From the NCBI GenBank assembly GCA_937873665.1, contig CALMYW010000539.1, positions 1-6,019 of the forward strand: a stretch of 6,019 nucleotides of DNA, read 5' to 3'. The stretch is from an uncultured Sphingorhabdus sp. Lineage in GTDB: Bacteria > Pseudomonadota > Alphaproteobacteria > Sphingomonadales > Sphingomonadaceae. The translations under genes and the position numbers were made by a program. The notes beneath the pieces are model-generated. The model was not told the DNA's origin and searched no databases. It saw only the letters and a program-made list of their open reading frames with translations. This document shows positions 756 through 6,019 of the stretch, piece after piece; the first letter of the stretch is position 1; every line of letters starts with the position of its first letter.

Positions 756-1898
756 ATGCAACCCTTCAAGGTCGACATCCCGGACACAGCGGTCGACCGC
801 ATCCTTCAGAGGCTACGCGATGCACGCTTCGCCCCCGCGCCTTCGGATGACGATGATTGGATCTACGGAACGGATGCCCACTGGCTGACCGCGCTTGTCG
901 AATATTGGACGACGGCGTACGACTGGCGAGCCGCTGAACGCACTTTGAACCGCTGGCCGCAGTTCAAGGCTCAGGTGGACGGGATGTGGATCCACTTCTA
1001 TTACGTCAAAGGATCTGCGAGCCGGCCGCGCCCGCTGCTGTTGACCCATGGTTGGCCAGGATCGGTTGTGGAGTTTCTGGGCTGCATCGATCGGCTCGCC
1101 CATCCCAACCGCCAAGGGGGCGACGCGGAGCAGGGGTTCGACTTGATTATCCCCTCGCTCCCTGGCTACGGCTTCTCTGACCGCCCGACCCGCCCGATGG
1201 GACCGCGAGCCGTTGCGCGCTACTGGCGAAAGCTGATGGTGGACGTGCTGGGATATGCCTCTTTCGTGGCGCAAGGCGGCGACTGGGGTGCCGCCGTCAC
1301 GAGCTGGTTGGGGATCGACCATGCCGATGTCACACGGGCAATTCACCTGAACATGCTGCCAAGCTGGGTCTTTGCGCCAGCTGCGGATGCGGGCGAAGAT
1401 GAGCACGCTTACCACGCTCGCGTTGCCGCGATGCGGGCAAGCGAGATGGGTTATTTCATGGTCCAGAGCACTAAGCCTCAGACCATCGCGCTGGCCCTGG
1501 CCGACAGCCCGTTGGGCTTCGCGGCGTGGGTCTGCGAGAAGTTCCGGACCTGGGGCGATACGCACGGCGACATCGATCGCCGCTTCAGCCGTGATACCCT
1601 GATCACGAATCTGATGCTCTACCTGATCACGGACAACGTCGGCCCCGCCATGTGGATGTACCGCGGGCGCGCCGAGGAGAGCCCCCCCGGAGCCGTCGTG
1701 CCCCGGGTCGAGGTGCCGACGGGTGTGGCCTGCTTTCCAGCCGAGGTGATACCGTATCCTCCCAGGCATGTCGCCGAGAGAGCGTACGCCGTCGCCAAAT
1801 GGTCCGAACTCCCTTCTGGGGGGCATTTCGCGGCCCTCGAGGAGCCGGCCGCCTTCAGCCAAGATGTTAGGGAGTTCTTTGCCCATGTCGGCTTCTGA
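756..1898 (+). CDS. Epoxide hydrolase, EHN-domain alpha/beta-hydrolase
   Basis: This 380-residue protein has the length and layout of microsomal/juvenile-hormone-type epoxide hydrolases: an N-terminal EHN region (about 1-110, with DWR, ERTLNRWPQF and DGMWIHF) and an alpha/beta-hydrolase domain. Visible catalytic parts are the oxyanion-hole motif HGWPGS (98-103), the nucleophile Asp176 in GGDWG, the cap-domain tyrosines Tyr233 and probably Tyr302 that polarise the epoxide oxygen, a probable charge-relay acid Glu330 (FPAEVIP), and the base His357 in SGGHFA. It should hydrolyse an epoxide to a vicinal diol through an alkyl-enzyme ester. No signal peptide is evident, so it is probably cytosolic. 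It starts 8 nt after the GMC stop without a strong ribosome-binding site, which fits translational coupling, and its last 14 nt overlap the next gene. All catalytic positions look intact; the natural substrate is unknown. Confidence 0.95.
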   Translation: MQPFKVDIPDTAVDRILQRLRDARFAPAPSDDDDWIYGTDAHWLTALVEYWTTAYDWRAAERTLNRWPQFKAQVDGMWIHFYYVKGSASRPRPLLLTHGWPGSVVEFLGCIDRLAHPNRQGGDAEQGFDLIIPSLPGYGFSDRPTRPMGPRAVARYWRKLMVDVLGYASFVAQGGDWGAAVTSWLGIDHADVTRAIHLNMLPSWVFAPAADAGEDEHAYHARVAAMRASEMGYFMVQSTKPQTIALALADSPLGFAAWVCEKFRTWGDTHGDIDRRFSRDTLITNLMLYLITDNVGPAMWMYRGRAEESPPGAVVPRVEVPTGVACFPAEVIPYPPRHVAERAYAVAKWSELPSGGHFAALEEPAAFSQDVREFFAHVGF

Positions 1899-2682
1899 TC
1901 CGCGTAGCCGGGCTTCCCGGGCACGCAGCCCGGCTGGTGAAGCGCGTACCGGTCGTGTCACTGTGGACACCTTCCCGCAGCCGAAGACGGCTGCGCGCGC
2001 CATGGATGAAATTGCAGCCCACTTTCGTGCCATGGTGGCCGATGGCCAACTGAAGCCGGGGGATCGTCTCCCCGCCGAACGTGACCTCGCCCATCGCATG
2101 CAGGTCAGCCGCAACACCGTGCGCGAGGCGCTTCGTACGCTAGAGCACGCAGGCCTGCTCGAGATGCGCAAGGGTGCCACAGGAGGTGCATTCGTGCGCA
2201 CCGGCAGCAGCGGCGCCATCGTCACCGGCCTGAGTGACCTGTACCACCTGGGGGCGATCACTCCCCGTCAGTTGACCGAAGCGCGCATATGGCTGAGCGA
2301 GCTCGTAGTCCGTGTCGCGTGCGTCCGGGCCAGCGATCGCGACTTCGCTGACCTCAAGGCCAACGTGGCTGCTGCAGCGGAGGCCCATCGCGGCGGACGA
2401 TTTGACGACCGCCAGAAGCTGCACCGCGAGTTCCACATCATCTTGGCACGCTCGACCCAGAACCCGATCGTCGCGATCACGATGGAAAGTGTGATGGAAG
2501 TCTTCGGCCGATTCATCGAGAAGATCGGTCCGCAGGAGAACCCGTACACTTTGCCTTCGCGGCGGCGTTTCCTGCGGCATCTCAAGGCCCGTGACGCAGA
2601 GAAGGCTGTCGCTGAGATGGCTAAGCACCTGCGGCGGCTGCACGACGATTATCTGGCCCGCTGGGACGATCTCGCGCCCTGA
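1885..2682 (+). CDS. GntR-family transcriptional regulator, FadR subfamily (FCD domain), first copy
   Basis: This 265-residue regulator has an Arg-rich leader (1-33), a winged helix-turn-helix (about 34-105, with LKPGDRLPAERDLA and SRNTVREALRTLEHAGLLE) and an all-helical FCD effector domain (about 125-250). The frame is open from further upstream, but ATG 1885 is chosen because AGGGAG (1869-1874) lies 10 nt before it; ATG 1864 and ATG 2002 are alternatives. The start lies inside the epoxide hydrolase gene (14-nt overlap), so the two are probably translationally coupled and the regulator may sense that pathway's substrate. FCD domains usually bind a metal through Asp/His/His/His. Here the corresponding positions read His180, His184, Arg226 and His248, so the first ligand is changed and the third is Arg by my hand alignment. 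It could bind metal differently or none. Family call is firm; effector and targets are unknown. Confidence 0.93.
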   Translation: MSASDPRSRASRARSPAGEARTGRVTVDTFPQPKTAARAMDEIAAHFRAMVADGQLKPGDRLPAERDLAHRMQVSRNTVREALRTLEHAGLLEMRKGATGGAFVRTGSSGAIVTGLSDLYHLGAITPRQLTEARIWLSELVVRVACVRASDRDFADLKANVAAAAEAHRGGRFDDRQKLHREFHIILARSTQNPIVAITMESVMEVFGRFIEKIGPQENPYTLPSRRRFLRHLKARDAEKAVAEMAKHLRRLHDDYLARWDDLAP

Positions 2683-2772: not shown

Positions 2773-3555
2773 ATGATGGAGAACGGTATGTCCTCCGAGG
2801 ATTCGCGCGAATCCGGCACCGGCACCGTCATCGCGGGCATAGTCGAGTACCTGCGTGAGCGGCGCCTTCAGCCCGGGGACCGTCTGCCTTCCGAGCGCGA
2901 TCTGGCCGAGCGGCTCGGTGCGGGACGCAACGCAGTGCGAGAGGCGCTGGCCACGCTTGTGACACTGCGCATGGTTGAGTCGCGTCCGAACTCTGGGATC
3001 TATCTGCGCCACATGGCGCGGGACAGCAGTTTCGAGGCGATGGTACTGCTGGCCGACATGGGCGCGACGCCGACACCGACCGAAGTCGCAGAGACCATGG
3101 AGGTCCGAGCCCACTTGGAAGCCTTGTCGGCACGGCTGGCTTGCGAACGCCGCAGCGACGAAGATCTTGCGCGACTCGAGGCGATCCTCGCCCGCACCGA
3201 GGCGGTGCTCGCTGAGGAGGGAAACATTGCCGACGTGGACACCGAGTTCCACGTCGCGTTGGTCGATGCGACACACAACTCGGTGCTGGTGCGCGTGATG
3301 CACACCTTCTACCGGTTTACTGCGCGTCGGCGACGTATCCTCTTCCGGGACCGCGCGCAGGCGTCTGCCTCCGCCCGCGATCATCGAAAACTCGTCACGC
3401 TCATTCGCCAGCGCGATGGGGCCAAGGCAGAGCTACTGATCTTGCGTCACATGAGCCGTGCGCGCAGCTATTGGTCAGAAGTGCTGGGCGAATCGCGCCC
3501 AACTGCGGATTCACCCCAAGTGAAGGTCCCGCGCAAACGCATCAAGCGATCATGA
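2773..3555 (+). CDS. GntR-family transcriptional regulator, FadR subfamily (FCD domain), second copy
   Basis: This is a 260-residue regulator. A winged helix-turn-helix spans about 14-80 (LQPGDRLPSERDLAERLG, GRNAVREALATL, SGIYLR), followed by an FCD domain at about 103-230. The usual FCD metal-ligand set appears intact: Asp156 and His160 in DVDTEFH, His204 in ARDHRKL, and His226 in LRHMSRA. The tail is basic (KVPRKRIKRS). ATG 2773 is preceded by AAGGA (2763-2767). ATG 2776 shares that site, and ATG 2788 has its own GGAG 6 nt upstream, so the exact start is uncertain within five codons. A TTG further upstream at 2725 lies inside the promoter region and is less likely. FadR-type regulators are normally repressors released by a carboxylic-acid ligand. 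It has its own candidate promoter and converges on the MarR gene, overlapping it by 6 bp. It is not a recent duplicate of the first GntR gene: similarity is largely confined to the DNA-binding domain. Confidence 0.93.
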   Translation: MMENGMSSEDSRESGTGTVIAGIVEYLRERRLQPGDRLPSERDLAERLGAGRNAVREALATLVTLRMVESRPNSGIYLRHMARDSSFEAMVLLADMGATPTPTEVAETMEVRAHLEALSARLACERRSDEDLARLEAILARTEAVLAEEGNIADVDTEFHVALVDATHNSVLVRVMHTFYRFTARRRRILFRDRAQASASARDHRKLVTLIRQRDGAKAELLILRHMSRARSYWSEVLGESRPTADSPQVKVPRKRIKRS

Positions 3556-4269
3556 GCGGCGACTGGGCCGCTTGCGATCGGTCGACGCGGTCGTGATCTT
3601 GCGCGGGTTGTCCTTCGGGTCGCGAGCGGTGTTCTCGGCGGGTGTGCGGCCCGGCGCCAGCTTCTGACCGCCCCTGCGCCGCAGCGCCGGAGCGTCTGGA
3701 GGCATGCCCGAGGCGCGGCGTTCACTGCGGATGAACTCCTGGGAGGCGCTTTCAACTTGCGGCAGATTGGCATAGACCCGACGCAGAAGGTCGCGCAACA
3801 TGTCCACCTCATCGTCGCTGAGCACCGAGAGCGCGACTTGCTCGCGCAAGACGGCGAAACGGATGATGCGGTCGTGCAGCGCCCGTCCTTGCGGCGTGAA
3901 CACCGCGTGCCGCACTCGTCGGTCTCGGGAGTCGTCCTCGAATTGCAGCAGCCCGTCCTGGTGCATTGCCTTGAAAGTGCGACTGATCGCTCCCTTGTCT
4001 GCGTCTAGCAGTTGCACCATCCGCTGCGCTGTTACGCGGCCCTCAAGCGCCAGCATCACCATCACCCGCCAAGTCTCAATCCCCACGGCATAGAGCGCAA
4101 GGTAAGCAGAGGAAGCCCGCCCCGACAGGTTGCCGGCAATCAGGGTCAGCAACCCGGGAACGTACTTCTCGAGGTCGAGCACAGGTCCATCCGCGGATTG
4201 GCGGATGGACGCCCGGCTGCGCCGCGGCTTTTCTGTACCCGGCAGGAATGGTTGGCGTTTGGCAGTCAT
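3550..4269 (-). CDS. MarR-family transcriptional regulator with long basic C-terminal tail
   Basis: The central part (about 33-175) is a MarR winged helix domain: TWRVMVMLALEG, a recognition-helix region VTAQRMVQLLDADKGAISRTFKAM, the wing SRDRRVRHAVFTPQG, and a dimerisation helix at the end (SDDEVDMLRDLLRRVYANL). MarR proteins are dimeric repressors or activators that respond to small, often aromatic, ligands. At 239 residues it is much longer than the usual 140-170: it adds about 30 residues at the N-terminus and 56 at the C-terminus (184-239; 16 Lys/Arg against 5 acidic, likely disordered). ATG 4269 is chosen as the first plausible start after the ferredoxin stop. It has no good Shine-Dalgarno sequence, and GTG 4290 in the same frame is an alternative. 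It is third in the P450-ferredoxin operon, so it may control that operon or itself. Confidence 0.88.
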   Translation of the reverse strand: MTAKRQPFLPGTEKPRRSRASIRQSADGPVLDLEKYVPGLLTLIAGNLSGRASSAYLALYAVGIETWRVMVMLALEGRVTAQRMVQLLDADKGAISRTFKAMHQDGLLQFEDDSRDRRVRHAVFTPQGRALHDRIIRFAVLREQVALSVLSDDEVDMLRDLLRRVYANLPQVESASQEFIRSERRASGMPPDAPALRRRGGQKLAPGRTPAENTARDPKDNPRKITTASTDRKRPSRRS

Positions 4270-4306: not shown

Positions 4307-4630
4307 TCACCGTTGGGAGGCCGGCAACTGCAGCTCCAGTCCTTCAAGCTCCGACGTCATGCGGATCTGGCATCCCAGGCGGCTGTTAGGTCGTCGCTCG
4401 GTAGCCGTCCCGTCCAGCAGGTCGTCCTCGTTGATACTGATGGGTGGGAGGCGGTCGAGCCATGCTTCGTCGACGAACACATGGCAGGTTCCGCACATGG
4501 CTGCGCCACCGCACTCGCCGATGATGCCGACGACCCGTGCATCGACTGCGGCGCGCATGATGCTGGAGCCGAGCGGTACCTCCAGCGCCACACGCGTACC
4601 GTCCGGCTGCTTGATTTGGATGATGGGCAC
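4307..4630 (-). CDS. [2Fe-2S] ferredoxin, putidaredoxin/adrenodoxin type, redox partner of the P450
   Basis: This 107-residue ferredoxin begins MPIIQIKQPDG. It has the vertebrate/putidaredoxin-type cluster pattern C-x5-C-x2-C-x37-C: Cys40, Cys46 and Cys49 in GECGGAAMCGTCHVFV, and Cys87 in LGCQI. Length and cysteine spacing match putidaredoxin (39, 45, 48, 86 as I recall it). Glu39, just before the first cysteine, corresponds to the acidic Asp38 that putidaredoxin uses for partner binding; the C-terminal Trp106 of putidaredoxin is absent (ends Gln-Arg), as in other members. GTG 4630 is chosen because AAGGA lies 8 nt upstream, and it leaves 16 nt after the P450 stop. An upstream TTG at 4666 would overlap the P450 gene and add residues unlike the family. 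It should carry electrons singly from a flavin reductase, not encoded in this window, to the P450. Confidence 0.95.
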   Translation of the reverse strand: MPIIQIKQPDGTRVALEVPLGSSIMRAAVDARVVGIIGECGGAAMCGTCHVFVDEAWLDRLPPISINEDDLLDGTATERRPNSRLGCQIRMTSELEGLELQLPASQR

Positions 4631-4646
4631 GATTCGGTTCCTTCGA

Positions 4647-5849
4647 TCAGGCGGGCACGAGTTCAAGCGGCAGGCTGTGCATGGCGCGCAGTGAGTTGTT
4701 CAGGTGACGCTTGTGCGGACCGGTCAGTCGGATTTCCTTCACGCGCTTGGCGAGCGCGCGCAGGACGATCTCGCCTTCCATCCGGGCGATCATTTGGCCG
4801 ACGCAGCCGTGGATGCCGGCGCCGAAGATCAGGTGACCCACGGGATTGCGGTTCACGTCGAACCGATCGGGGTCGGACCACTTGCGAGGATCCCTGTTCG
4901 CGGCGCCGAGCAGGTTGAGCACCTTCCGGTCTTCCGGGATCGTCACGCCTGCAATTTCCGTCTCCCGCGAGGTCGTACGGAAAATTGTCTGAACCATCGA
5001 TTCGTAGCGCAGGCCTTCCTCGAAGGTCTGTCGTGCAAGTCCGGGCTCGGCGTGCAGCTTCGCGTACTCGGCCGGATGGCGTGCCAGCGTCAGAAGCAGA
5101 TTGGCGATGCCACCGATGGTGGTGTCGACACCTGCGGAAAGGAAGGAGCGCACCAGCATCGCAGCTTGGTCGGTACTGATCTCCCCCGTGTCGGCGGCTT
5201 CATAGATCAGGTGTCCCAGTCCGCCCGCCGCCAGCGACTCGCGCTTGCAGTGGTCCATGATCCAGGAGGAAACTGGCTTGTAGCGCTCCATCGAGCGCTC
5301 GAATAGTTCGTTTCGCGGACCGAGCGCATTGAAGACCATGTCGCCGTAAAGAAGCAGGTTCTCACGGCCGTTGGACTCCAGGCCAACTGCATCGGGGAAG
5401 ACCTTCAGCGGGAAGTACTCCGCGATGTCCTTGACGCCGTCGATGCGGCCCTTCGCCAGCGCGCGGTCGACCATGGTCACGGCTTCGGCTTCGAACAGGT
5501 CGCGCAGACGCTGCAGATTCTTGGGGGACATGATCCGGGAGATGACCGTACGCACGACGGTGTGATCGGGAGGATCGGCTTCCAGCAGGATGCTCTTGGG
5601 ACGGAAGGGCGCCTCATGCCGGAAGTTGGCCAAGCCCACGCCAGCAGACGAGATGAAAACCTCCCAATTGGTCAAGACCGCTTGGCATTCGGCATGTCGG
5701 GCAAGCACGAATAGATCGTACTTGGGCAGGTAAGTCACGGGTCCTGCCTCTCGCAGGACCTCGTGCATCGCATATGGCTCGTCGATGTTTTCGTCGCTGA
5801 AAGGATCGACGTCGATTTGGGGAACTCGTGTCTCGACAACAGCATTCAT
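4647..5849 (-). CDS. Cytochrome P450, CYP199-like (para-substituted aromatic acid monooxygenase)
   Basis: This 400-residue bacterial class I P450 is complete. It has an I-helix AGVDTT (239-244, with the acid-alcohol pair Asp242/Thr243), an ExxR motif (Glu278-Arg281), and a heme loop FGAGIHGCVG (342-351) with ligand Cys349. The whole sequence aligns, at a constant offset of 9 and with recalled stretches such as ILEADPP, FPDA and NRDPR, to CYP199A4 of Rhodopseudomonas palustris, which demethylates 4-methoxybenzoate. The carboxylate-binding residues of that enzyme appear conserved: Arg83, Ser86, Arg234, Ser235, Ser238. Two pocket phenylalanines differ (Leu176 and Ile289), while Phe173 and Val286 are kept. 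ATG 5849 is chosen because AGGAG lies 7 nt upstream. Its ferredoxin follows after 16 nt. The protein is soluble and probably acts on an aromatic acid, with the exact substrate unknown. The CYP199 placement rests on remembered sequence. Confidence 0.94.
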   Translation of the reverse strand: MNAVVETRVPQIDVDPFSDENIDEPYAMHEVLREAGPVTYLPKYDLFVLARHAECQAVLTNWEVFISSAGVGLANFRHEAPFRPKSILLEADPPDHTVVRTVISRIMSPKNLQRLRDLFEAEAVTMVDRALAKGRIDGVKDIAEYFPLKVFPDAVGLESNGRENLLLYGDMVFNALGPRNELFERSMERYKPVSSWIMDHCKRESLAAGGLGHLIYEAADTGEISTDQAAMLVRSFLSAGVDTTIGGIANLLLTLARHPAEYAKLHAEPGLARQTFEEGLRYESMVQTIFRTTSRETEIAGVTIPEDRKVLNLLGAANRDPRKWSDPDRFDVNRNPVGHLIFGAGIHGCVGQMIARMEGEIVLRALAKRVKEIRLTGPHKRHLNNSLRAMHSLPLELVPA

Positions 5850-5867
5850 CAGAAGTCTCCTAATAAG

Positions 5868-5878
5868 TGGTGGGGCCA
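5868..5878 (+). promoter_or_regulatory. Candidate GntR-type operator, copy 1 (at the P450 start site)
   Basis: TGGTGGGGCCA lies within a larger dyad, AAGTGG-TGGGG-CCACTT (5865-5881). It runs from the last base of the P450 -10 box to about +4, an ideal place for repression. The identical 11-mer occurs inverted at 5983-5993, and a related one at 5997-6007. It matches the FadR-type core TNGTNNNACNA at all but one fixed position (G for the first A). Confidence 0.5.
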
Positions 5879-5906
5879 CTTTAGCGACAACTAGTTGATA
5901 GTTCAA
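5878..5906 (-). promoter_or_regulatory. Candidate sigma70 promoter of the P450-ferredoxin-MarR operon
   Basis: Read on the minus strand, TTGAAC (5906-5901, 4 of 6) and TAAAGT (5883-5878, 4 of 6) are separated by exactly 17 bp. Transcription would begin near 5871, giving a leader of about 22 nt that contains the AGGAG ribosome-binding site (5861-5857), 7 nt before the P450 ATG. The spacer holds the palindrome CAACTAGTTG (5888-5897), and a repeat copy covers the predicted start site. Assigned by eye. Confidence 0.55.
5888..5897. promoter_or_regulatory. Palindromic operator candidate in the P450 promoter spacer
   Basis: CAACTAGTTG is a perfect 10-bp palindrome sitting between the candidate -35 and -10 boxes. 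Its core ACTAGT also forms the palindrome CACTAGTG (2754-2761) ahead of the second GntR gene. A site here would let a dimeric regulator such as the operon's MarR protein exclude RNA polymerase. Palindromes of this length arise several times by chance in a window this size, so position is the main argument. Confidence 0.4.
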
Positions 5907-5954
5907 GCAAATTTCATAATGGATTTCCCTAGCAGTAATCGGCTCTCATCGGCC

Positions 5955-5982
5955 TTGCGCAGCATCAAAACGAGGTTATGAT
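5955..5982 (+). promoter_or_regulatory. Candidate divergent promoter pointing out of the window
   Basis: TTGCGC (5955-5960, 3 of 6) and TATGAT (5977-5982, 5 of 6) are 16 bp apart on the plus strand. The next base begins the second copy of the 11-bp element. No start codon follows before the right edge, so the gene it would drive lies beyond 6019. The -10 box is good and the -35 box is poor, as in regulated promoters. Confidence 0.4.
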
Positions 5983-5993
5983 TGGCCCCACCA
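5983..5993 (-). promoter_or_regulatory. Candidate GntR-type operator, copy 2
   Basis: On the minus strand this is TGGTGGGGCCA, identical to copy 1 and inverted relative to it. It follows directly after the TATGAT box of the divergent promoter, so each copy holds nearly the same position (about -6 to +5) relative to its own promoter. Confidence 0.5.
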
Positions 5994-5996
5994 GTT

Positions 5997-6007
5997 TGGT
6001 CACTCCA
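5997..6007 (-). promoter_or_regulatory. Candidate GntR-type operator, copy 3 (degenerate)
   Basis: On the minus strand this is TGGAGTGACCA, matching 8 of 11 positions of copy 2 and starting 14 bp from it. It is preceded by AAG, as copy 1 is (AAGTGG in both). It has the ACCA half that copies 1 and 2 lack, while they have the TGGT half. Shared conserved bases are TGG.G.G.CCA. Confidence 0.35.
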
Positions 6008-6019
6008 CTTTTACACATA

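Follow-up and report, generated by a model that had tools for sequence, protein, structure and literature searches.

FadR-subfamily regulators recognize operators of the form TKGT/ACMA with 3 nt between GT and AC, and the divergons under their control may carry one site per operon, with extra half-boxes placed 7-12 nt from the site centre (PMC4494728, in excerpt). Escherichia coli PdhR binds the box (A)ATTGGTnnnACCAAT(T), and its sites are known between divergent genes too (PMC7660256, in excerpt). Two FCD-type regulators of catabolic genes are also relevant: Atu1419 (GntR/VanR), which has palindromes over -10 regions (PMC7797058, in excerpt), and AlkR, which is said to repress the AlkB2 monooxygenase (PMC12042122, in excerpt). 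CYP199A4 of Rhodopseudomonas palustris, the closest named and solved relative of the cytochrome P450 considered here, holds its substrate carboxylate through Arg92, Ser95, and Ser244 (PMC11854964, in excerpt). Among the literature matches listed, none addressed the regulation of CYP199.

We analyzed a 6,019-nucleotide stretch of DNA, referred to as the window, which ends in an intergenic region carrying three TGG-N5-CCA elements (O1-O3). Based on genome comparison, we predict that GntR2 (2773-3555) probably acts through these elements as the repressor of the P450-ferredoxin-MarR operon and of a divergent gene beyond the window, which likely encodes a Rieske protein. As in described FadR-subfamily divergons, sites resembling TKGT-N3-ACMA lie one near each divergent operon, and the TGG of O3 begins 9 nt from the O2 centre, within the half-box range of the PMC4494728 excerpt; unlike in those divergons, the regulator gene lies outside both divergent operons of the window, and a likely MarR site is present as well at one of the two promoters. 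PdhR belongs to the same subfamily, and its 15-letter box is found without a mismatch in 7 of the 17 Rieske promoters linked to GntR2, but the targets here are oxygenases rather than pyruvate metabolism and GntR2 scores far under the PdhR cut-off. Atu1419 differs in binding ATGTATACAT and not TGGT-N3-ACCA, as given in the excerpt of PMC7797058. The kind of system is known; what is new is the regulon, its extension to the P450 operon, and a second lock that MarR is predicted to provide; the matches listed, as far as their excerpts go, hold no account of a circuit of this kind.

Gene content and the intergenic repeats

The + strand of the window encodes, in order, the C-terminal part of a GMC oxidoreductase, an epoxide hydrolase, GntR1, and GntR2, while the - strand encodes MarR, a ferredoxin, and the P450, which starts at 5849 and has the remainder of the window, up to 6019, upstream of it (Table 1). 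GntR2 combines an N-terminal winged helix (PF00392 GntR, 58.8 bits, cut-off 27) with a C-terminal FCD domain (PF07729, 92.0 bits, cut-off 24.3), and GntR1 has the same two domains (GntR 67.4 bits, FCD 62.8 bits). Neither reached the PdhR equivalog NF007001 (cut-off 330 bits; GntR2 64.6, GntR1 79.1) or the LldR equivalog NF007741 (cut-off 311 bits; GntR2 103.7, GntR1 77.4). GntR2 would act like PdhR or LldR but belongs to neither. The P450 matched the CYP199A structures (2fr7, CYP199A4) at E values of about 1e-139 to 1e-134, and the three carboxylate-holding residues of CYP199A4 are kept in the alignment as Arg83, Ser86, and Ser235. Unlike for CYP199A4, the P450 operon of the window is a different one with its own MarR gene. 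No viral contig matched, and plasmid matches to the P450 were at best 52.4% identical.

Table 1. Positions in the window of the genes and of the predicted promoter and operator elements
Feature	Coordinates	Strand	Basis
GntR1, second GntR + FCD regulator, rival binder	1885..2682	+	Pfam
GntR2, FadR-subfamily (GntR + FCD) regulator, likely binder of O1-O3	2773..3555	+	Pfam; orthologs occurring with Rieske gene
MarR-family regulator, last gene of P450 operon	3550..4269	-	Pfam MarR_2, 28.9 bits, cut-off 27
2Fe-2S ferredoxin; extent of the open frame, with the true start likely internal	4307..4666	-	Pfam Fer2, 38.2 bits
CYP199-like cytochrome P450	4647..5849	-	best solved relatives 2fr7, CYP199A4
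O1, predicted GntR2 operator at P450 promoter, AGTGGTGGGGCCACT, over -10 and likely start point	5866..5880	.	matrix rank 2; ATTGGTCCCACCACT in same place in L001
Predicted P450 -10, TAAAGT	5878..5883	-	TAAATT in L001, TACATT in L002, equal spacing; not called by scan
Predicted MarR operator, palindrome TTGA-N4-TCAA, TTGAACTATCAA; first half is predicted P450 -35	5895..5906	-	kept in relatives
Predicted P450 -35, TTGAAC	5901..5906	-	same layout in L001 and L002; not called by scan
Possible -35 of divergent gene, TTGCGC, weak	5955..5960	+	by eye; not called by scan
Predicted -10 of divergent gene, TATGAT, directly abutting O2	5977..5982	+	TANNAT conservation; not called by scan
O2, predicted GntR2 operator at divergent promoter, ATTGGCCCCACCAGT	5981..5995	.	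matrix rank 1; same place in L001
O3, weak copy 14 bp from O2, TTTGGTCACTCCACT	5995..6009	.	matrix rank 5; 14-bp step also in L001

The original prediction described an exact inverted 11-mer in the intergenic DNA, and direct reading and a script both recovered it, with TGGTGGGGCCA at 5868-5878 and its reverse complement, TGGCCCCACCA, at 5983-5993. A third copy, TGGTCACTCCA (5997-6007), had been described as an 8-of-11 match, which is correct against the inverted form; against TGGTGGGGCCA it matches at 7 of 11 positions. TGG-N5-CCA is common to all three copies, and the P450-side copy extends to AGTGG-TGGGG-CCACT, a palindrome with perfect 5-bp arms. Chance was rejected as the origin of the repeats: an exact inverted 11-mer arose in 5 of 5000 dinucleotide shuffles of 5850-6019, in line with the earlier estimate of well under 1 in 100, and at least three TGG-N5-CCA sites arose in none of 5000. 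The window contains three further TGG-N5-CCA occurrences (633, 4498, and 5102), all inside genes, and the same scan returned none before GntR2 itself. The proposed fit to the FadR-subfamily operator is close but not exact in the window: O1 (TGGT-GGG-GCCA), O2 (TGGC-CCC-ACCA), and O3 (TGGT-CAC-TCCA) each depart once from TKGT-N3-ACMA.

Two promoters facing away from each other had also been proposed. A strict sigma-70 consensus scan of 5840-6019 called none, while by eye both can be discerned, as TTGAAC-N17-TAAAGT on the - strand and TTGCGC-N16-TATGAT on the + strand, with supporting conservation. No terminator was called in 5840-6019. Two small palindromes with a similar core were also seen, CAACTAGTTG (5888-5897) between the predicted P450 -35 and -10 and CACTAGTG (2754-2761) just upstream of GntR2; that of CAACTAGTTG is absent from L001, the closest relative of the locus.

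Conservation at P450 promoters of relatives

Relatives of the P450 were collected as 56 loci from one scan of species genomes. The closest, L001, is a Rubrivivax metagenome-assembled genome with an 88% identical P450, the ferredoxin, MarR, epoxide hydrolase, and GMC genes, and both regulators (GntR2 82% and GntR1 70% identical to those of the window). All three elements are in place there: relative to the P450 start, ATTGGTCCCACCACT lies at -28, ACTGGTAGGACCAAT at -140, and TCTGGAACTACCAGA at -154, and of these ATTGGTCCCACCACT and ACTGGTAGGACCAAT match TGGT-N3-ACCA perfectly. In the alignment of the two intergenic regions, 34 of 44 operator positions agree and 10 of 12 in the TTGA-N4-TCAA box over the P450 -35, compared with 43 of 110 remaining positions. 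In L001 the product of the divergent gene is a Rieske protein of 429 residues whose C-terminal domain is LigXa-like; the genes that follow encode a CoA-transferase of family III, a binding protein of the TctC type, and a thiolase-like protein. The gene beyond the end of the window at 6019 is likely a Rieske gene as well; judging by the name of its domain, such a protein may act on related methoxylated acids.

Beyond L001, the expectation that the repeats would be conserved among P450 promoters was borne out only in part. L002 (Variovorax, P450 81% identical) has the same gene set as L001 minus GntR2, which was not found in its genome at E 1e-40, while the same query identified relatives in 10 of the 101 genomes of that genus (E 1e-60). 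The 320 nt upstream of its P450 lack TGG-N5-CCA; the promoter keeps TTGAAC-N17-TACATT together with the TTGA-N4-TCAA palindrome. In L006, L132, and L133 too, the 300-320 nt upstream of the P450 contain the palindrome but lack TGG-N5-CCA. Stray TGG-N5-CCA sites at loci without GntR2 were seen at -34 of the P450 in L118 and at -224 in L008. The P450 occurs together with GntR2 in only two loci, the window and L001, which are close kin.

Several features of these loci were observed in passing. In L001, GntR2 follows MarR on the P450 strand (9280-9999), unlike in the window, and it may therefore lie inside the very operon that it would repress. The genome of L001 encodes a second CYP199-like P450 (L127, 59% identical to that of the window), and both elements are missing from the 300 nt preceding that gene. 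The GMC oxidoreductase, epoxide hydrolase, and GntR1 genes (1-2682) are co-directional in the window and occur together in L001, and L002 keeps the first two together; GntR1 could serve at that operon.

Predicted Rieske-linked operators and the choice of regulator

At E 1e-40, GntR2 relatives were detected in 11 of 399 genomes of the family of L001, six of them with at least 60% identity (that of L001 included), and six plasmid records also had relatives. We fetched 20 GntR2-ortholog loci (50-82% identical): L001, L086-L090, L091-L100, and L101-L104, with four of the six plasmid records taken, as the other two look like same-species repeats. Family matches L071-L075, at 36-44% identity, were not counted as orthologs. 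A Rieske gene was present at all 20 loci, with 61-82% identity to the L001 gene at the remaining 19; in an annotated Variovorax paradoxus, the Rieske gene, its reductase, and the GntR2 ortholog follow one another on one strand. Across the 399 family genomes, the Rieske gene was found in 10 (E 1e-150), which include all six with a close GntR2. A search of 399 genomes of the order at E 1e-70 gave no GntR2 match beyond the genome of L001 itself.

An operator matrix was built from 17 distinct Rieske promoters, leaving out the window, L001, and two duplicates: L098, whose record is that of L103, and L101, whose promoter is that of L096. TGG-N5-CCA lies at most 180 nt upstream of the Rieske start in all 17, and perfect ATTGGTNNNACCAAT in seven. 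With one site per promoter picked by likeness to ATTGGTNNNACCAAT, a choice that sharpens the matrix, O2 and O1 ranked first and second in the window at 16.0 and 9.3 bits, where mononucleotide-shuffled windows are expected to hold 0.02 and 0.07 such scores each. In Cupriavidus metallidurans (L102), the Rieske gene is preceded by a sequence nearly identical to O2. O3, at 0.8 bits, does not exceed chance as a motif on its own (about 3.8 expected per shuffled window); it is possibly an accessory half-box, and exact 14-bp doublets occur in L086, L087, L090, and L100. Counting a loose operator pattern across the genome of L001 was uninformative, with 107 and 111 matches, fewer than the 272 and 312 of the reversed control. 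In 14 of 18 related Rieske promoters (L001 included), as in the window, a TANNAT directly abuts TGG-N5-CCA, against a background of 22 in 13,678 TGG on both strands of those loci; the operator thus begins at the end of the likely -10. Together with the conservation in L001, the two top-ranked sites support the original prediction that a GntR protein represses the P450 operon and an unseen divergent gene; we infer the binding and the repression. The likely identity of that regulator (GntR2) and of the unseen gene (Rieske), together with the predicted MarR palindrome, are additions to it. Separately, L073, L074, and L075, which hold distant GntR2 homologs (36-38%), have two TGGT-N3-ACCA boxes exactly 14 bp apart beside the homolog's own gene, the same step as from O2 to O3.

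GntR1 (1885-2682), of the same subfamily, could instead bind the sites and control both promoters, and Rieske promoters at loci without GntR2 bear directly on this. All five examined (L002 and four genomes of the family) have TGG-N5-CCA within 180 nt, so the core is not private to GntR2 and does not name the regulator. GntR1 relatives lie in four of these loci (L002, 65%; L128, 75%; L129, 49%; L130, 59%); the fifth, L131, has a site of the ATTGG...CCAAT form and neither GntR1 nor GntR2 in 20 kb. However, GntR1 adjoins the P450 in L002, yet TGG-N5-CCA is missing there. In addition, an A before TGG is commoner at half-sites of promoters without GntR2 (7 of 12) than with it (15 of 66; p = 0.03, for sites that are not independent), and the window has 0 of 6, so that the flank bases weakly favour GntR2. 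We consider control by GntR1 unlikely. A clean separation of the two regulators by flank bases was set aside as weakly supported; L099 and L100 carry both forms. In these two loci (L099:7125-7192 and L100:12594-12667), AATGGT...ACCATT and ATTGGT...CCA sites both occur, as if two FadR-type regulators met.

The putative MarR element and the predicted circuit

The P450 promoter carries a second element that recurs in several relatives. TTGA-N4-TCAA lies 56-103 nt upstream of the P450 in the window, L001, L002, L006, L132, and L133, and 13 occurrences were counted in the 763 kb of L001-L056. In L133 a MarR homolog is encoded 6 kb from the P450, with a further box located 181 nt ahead of the matched part of that gene. 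The DNA-binding domain of the window's MarR is recognized by MarR_2, and a related MarR model fell just short (24.3 vs 24.6 bits). We predict that MarR represses its own operon here. The TGG-N5-CCA repeats were rejected as MarR sites, because the palindrome over the -35 differs from them and persists in L002, where they are missing. No TTGA-N4-TCAA was found upstream of the P450 in L003-L005, L007-L010, and L055, which also have MarR; these upstream stretches look like coding sequence of the upstream gene, and the promoter would be elsewhere.

This second element raises the alternative that only O2 and O3 function, with O1 idle and the P450 operon under MarR alone. The lower score of O1 (9.3 vs 16.0 bits) fits this, as do the four P450 promoters that have the palindrome and lack TGG-N5-CCA (L002, L006, L132, and L133). 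Against it, the element is kept in the same place in L001, where it is perfect TGGT-N3-ACCA, and few such scores are expected by chance (0.07 per shuffled window); we regard an idle O1 as improbable. Equally improbable is a GntR2 that joins O1 and O2 by a DNA loop, or activates, instead of blocking each promoter separately: their centres are 115 bp apart and tetrameric Atu1419, another FCD regulator, loops palindromes 190 bp apart (PMC7797058, in excerpt), but each of the two overlaps a predicted -10 or start point, in keeping with simple blocking, and in FadR-subfamily divergons each operon often has a site of its own that acts independently (PMC4494728, in excerpt).

With GntR2 as a separate repressor at each promoter, its site over the P450 start point would be O1 and that over the start point of the divergent gene O2, perhaps aided by O3, and an acidic metabolite would free it from both sites at once, switching the P450 and the Rieske oxygenase on and off jointly. 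We infer this ligand, as well as repression rather than activation. MarR would bind TTGA-N4-TCAA over the P450 -35, such that two signals would be required for the P450 and a single one for the divergent gene. A tentative evolutionary reading, to which we give slightly less than even weight, is that the P450-ferredoxin-MarR operon was captured by the Rieske regulon: in one lineage the operon would have ended up in a back-to-back arrangement with the Rieske gene, acquiring a GntR2 operator precisely at its own start point. A single repressor would then serve two unrelated oxygenases that act on related aromatic acids, while the P450 keeps its MarR lock, forming an AND gate.

If true, the circuit would name the regulator, the operator, and two target operons for an oxygenase module of Rubrivivax, Variovorax, Cupriavidus, and other Burkholderiales, and it would be a clear case of an enzyme operon entering an existing regulon through one start-point site with the old repressor retained. 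A short repeat spotted by eye has in this way led, through genome comparison, to a testable regulon.

A further candidate element was seen upstream of the P450. GGGAAA lies 16-23 nt upstream of TTGA-N4-TCAA in the window (5922-5930, AGGGAAATC on the - strand), L001, L002, L132, and L133, and may be another kept element; L006 has CCGGAAA at 34 upstream of the box.
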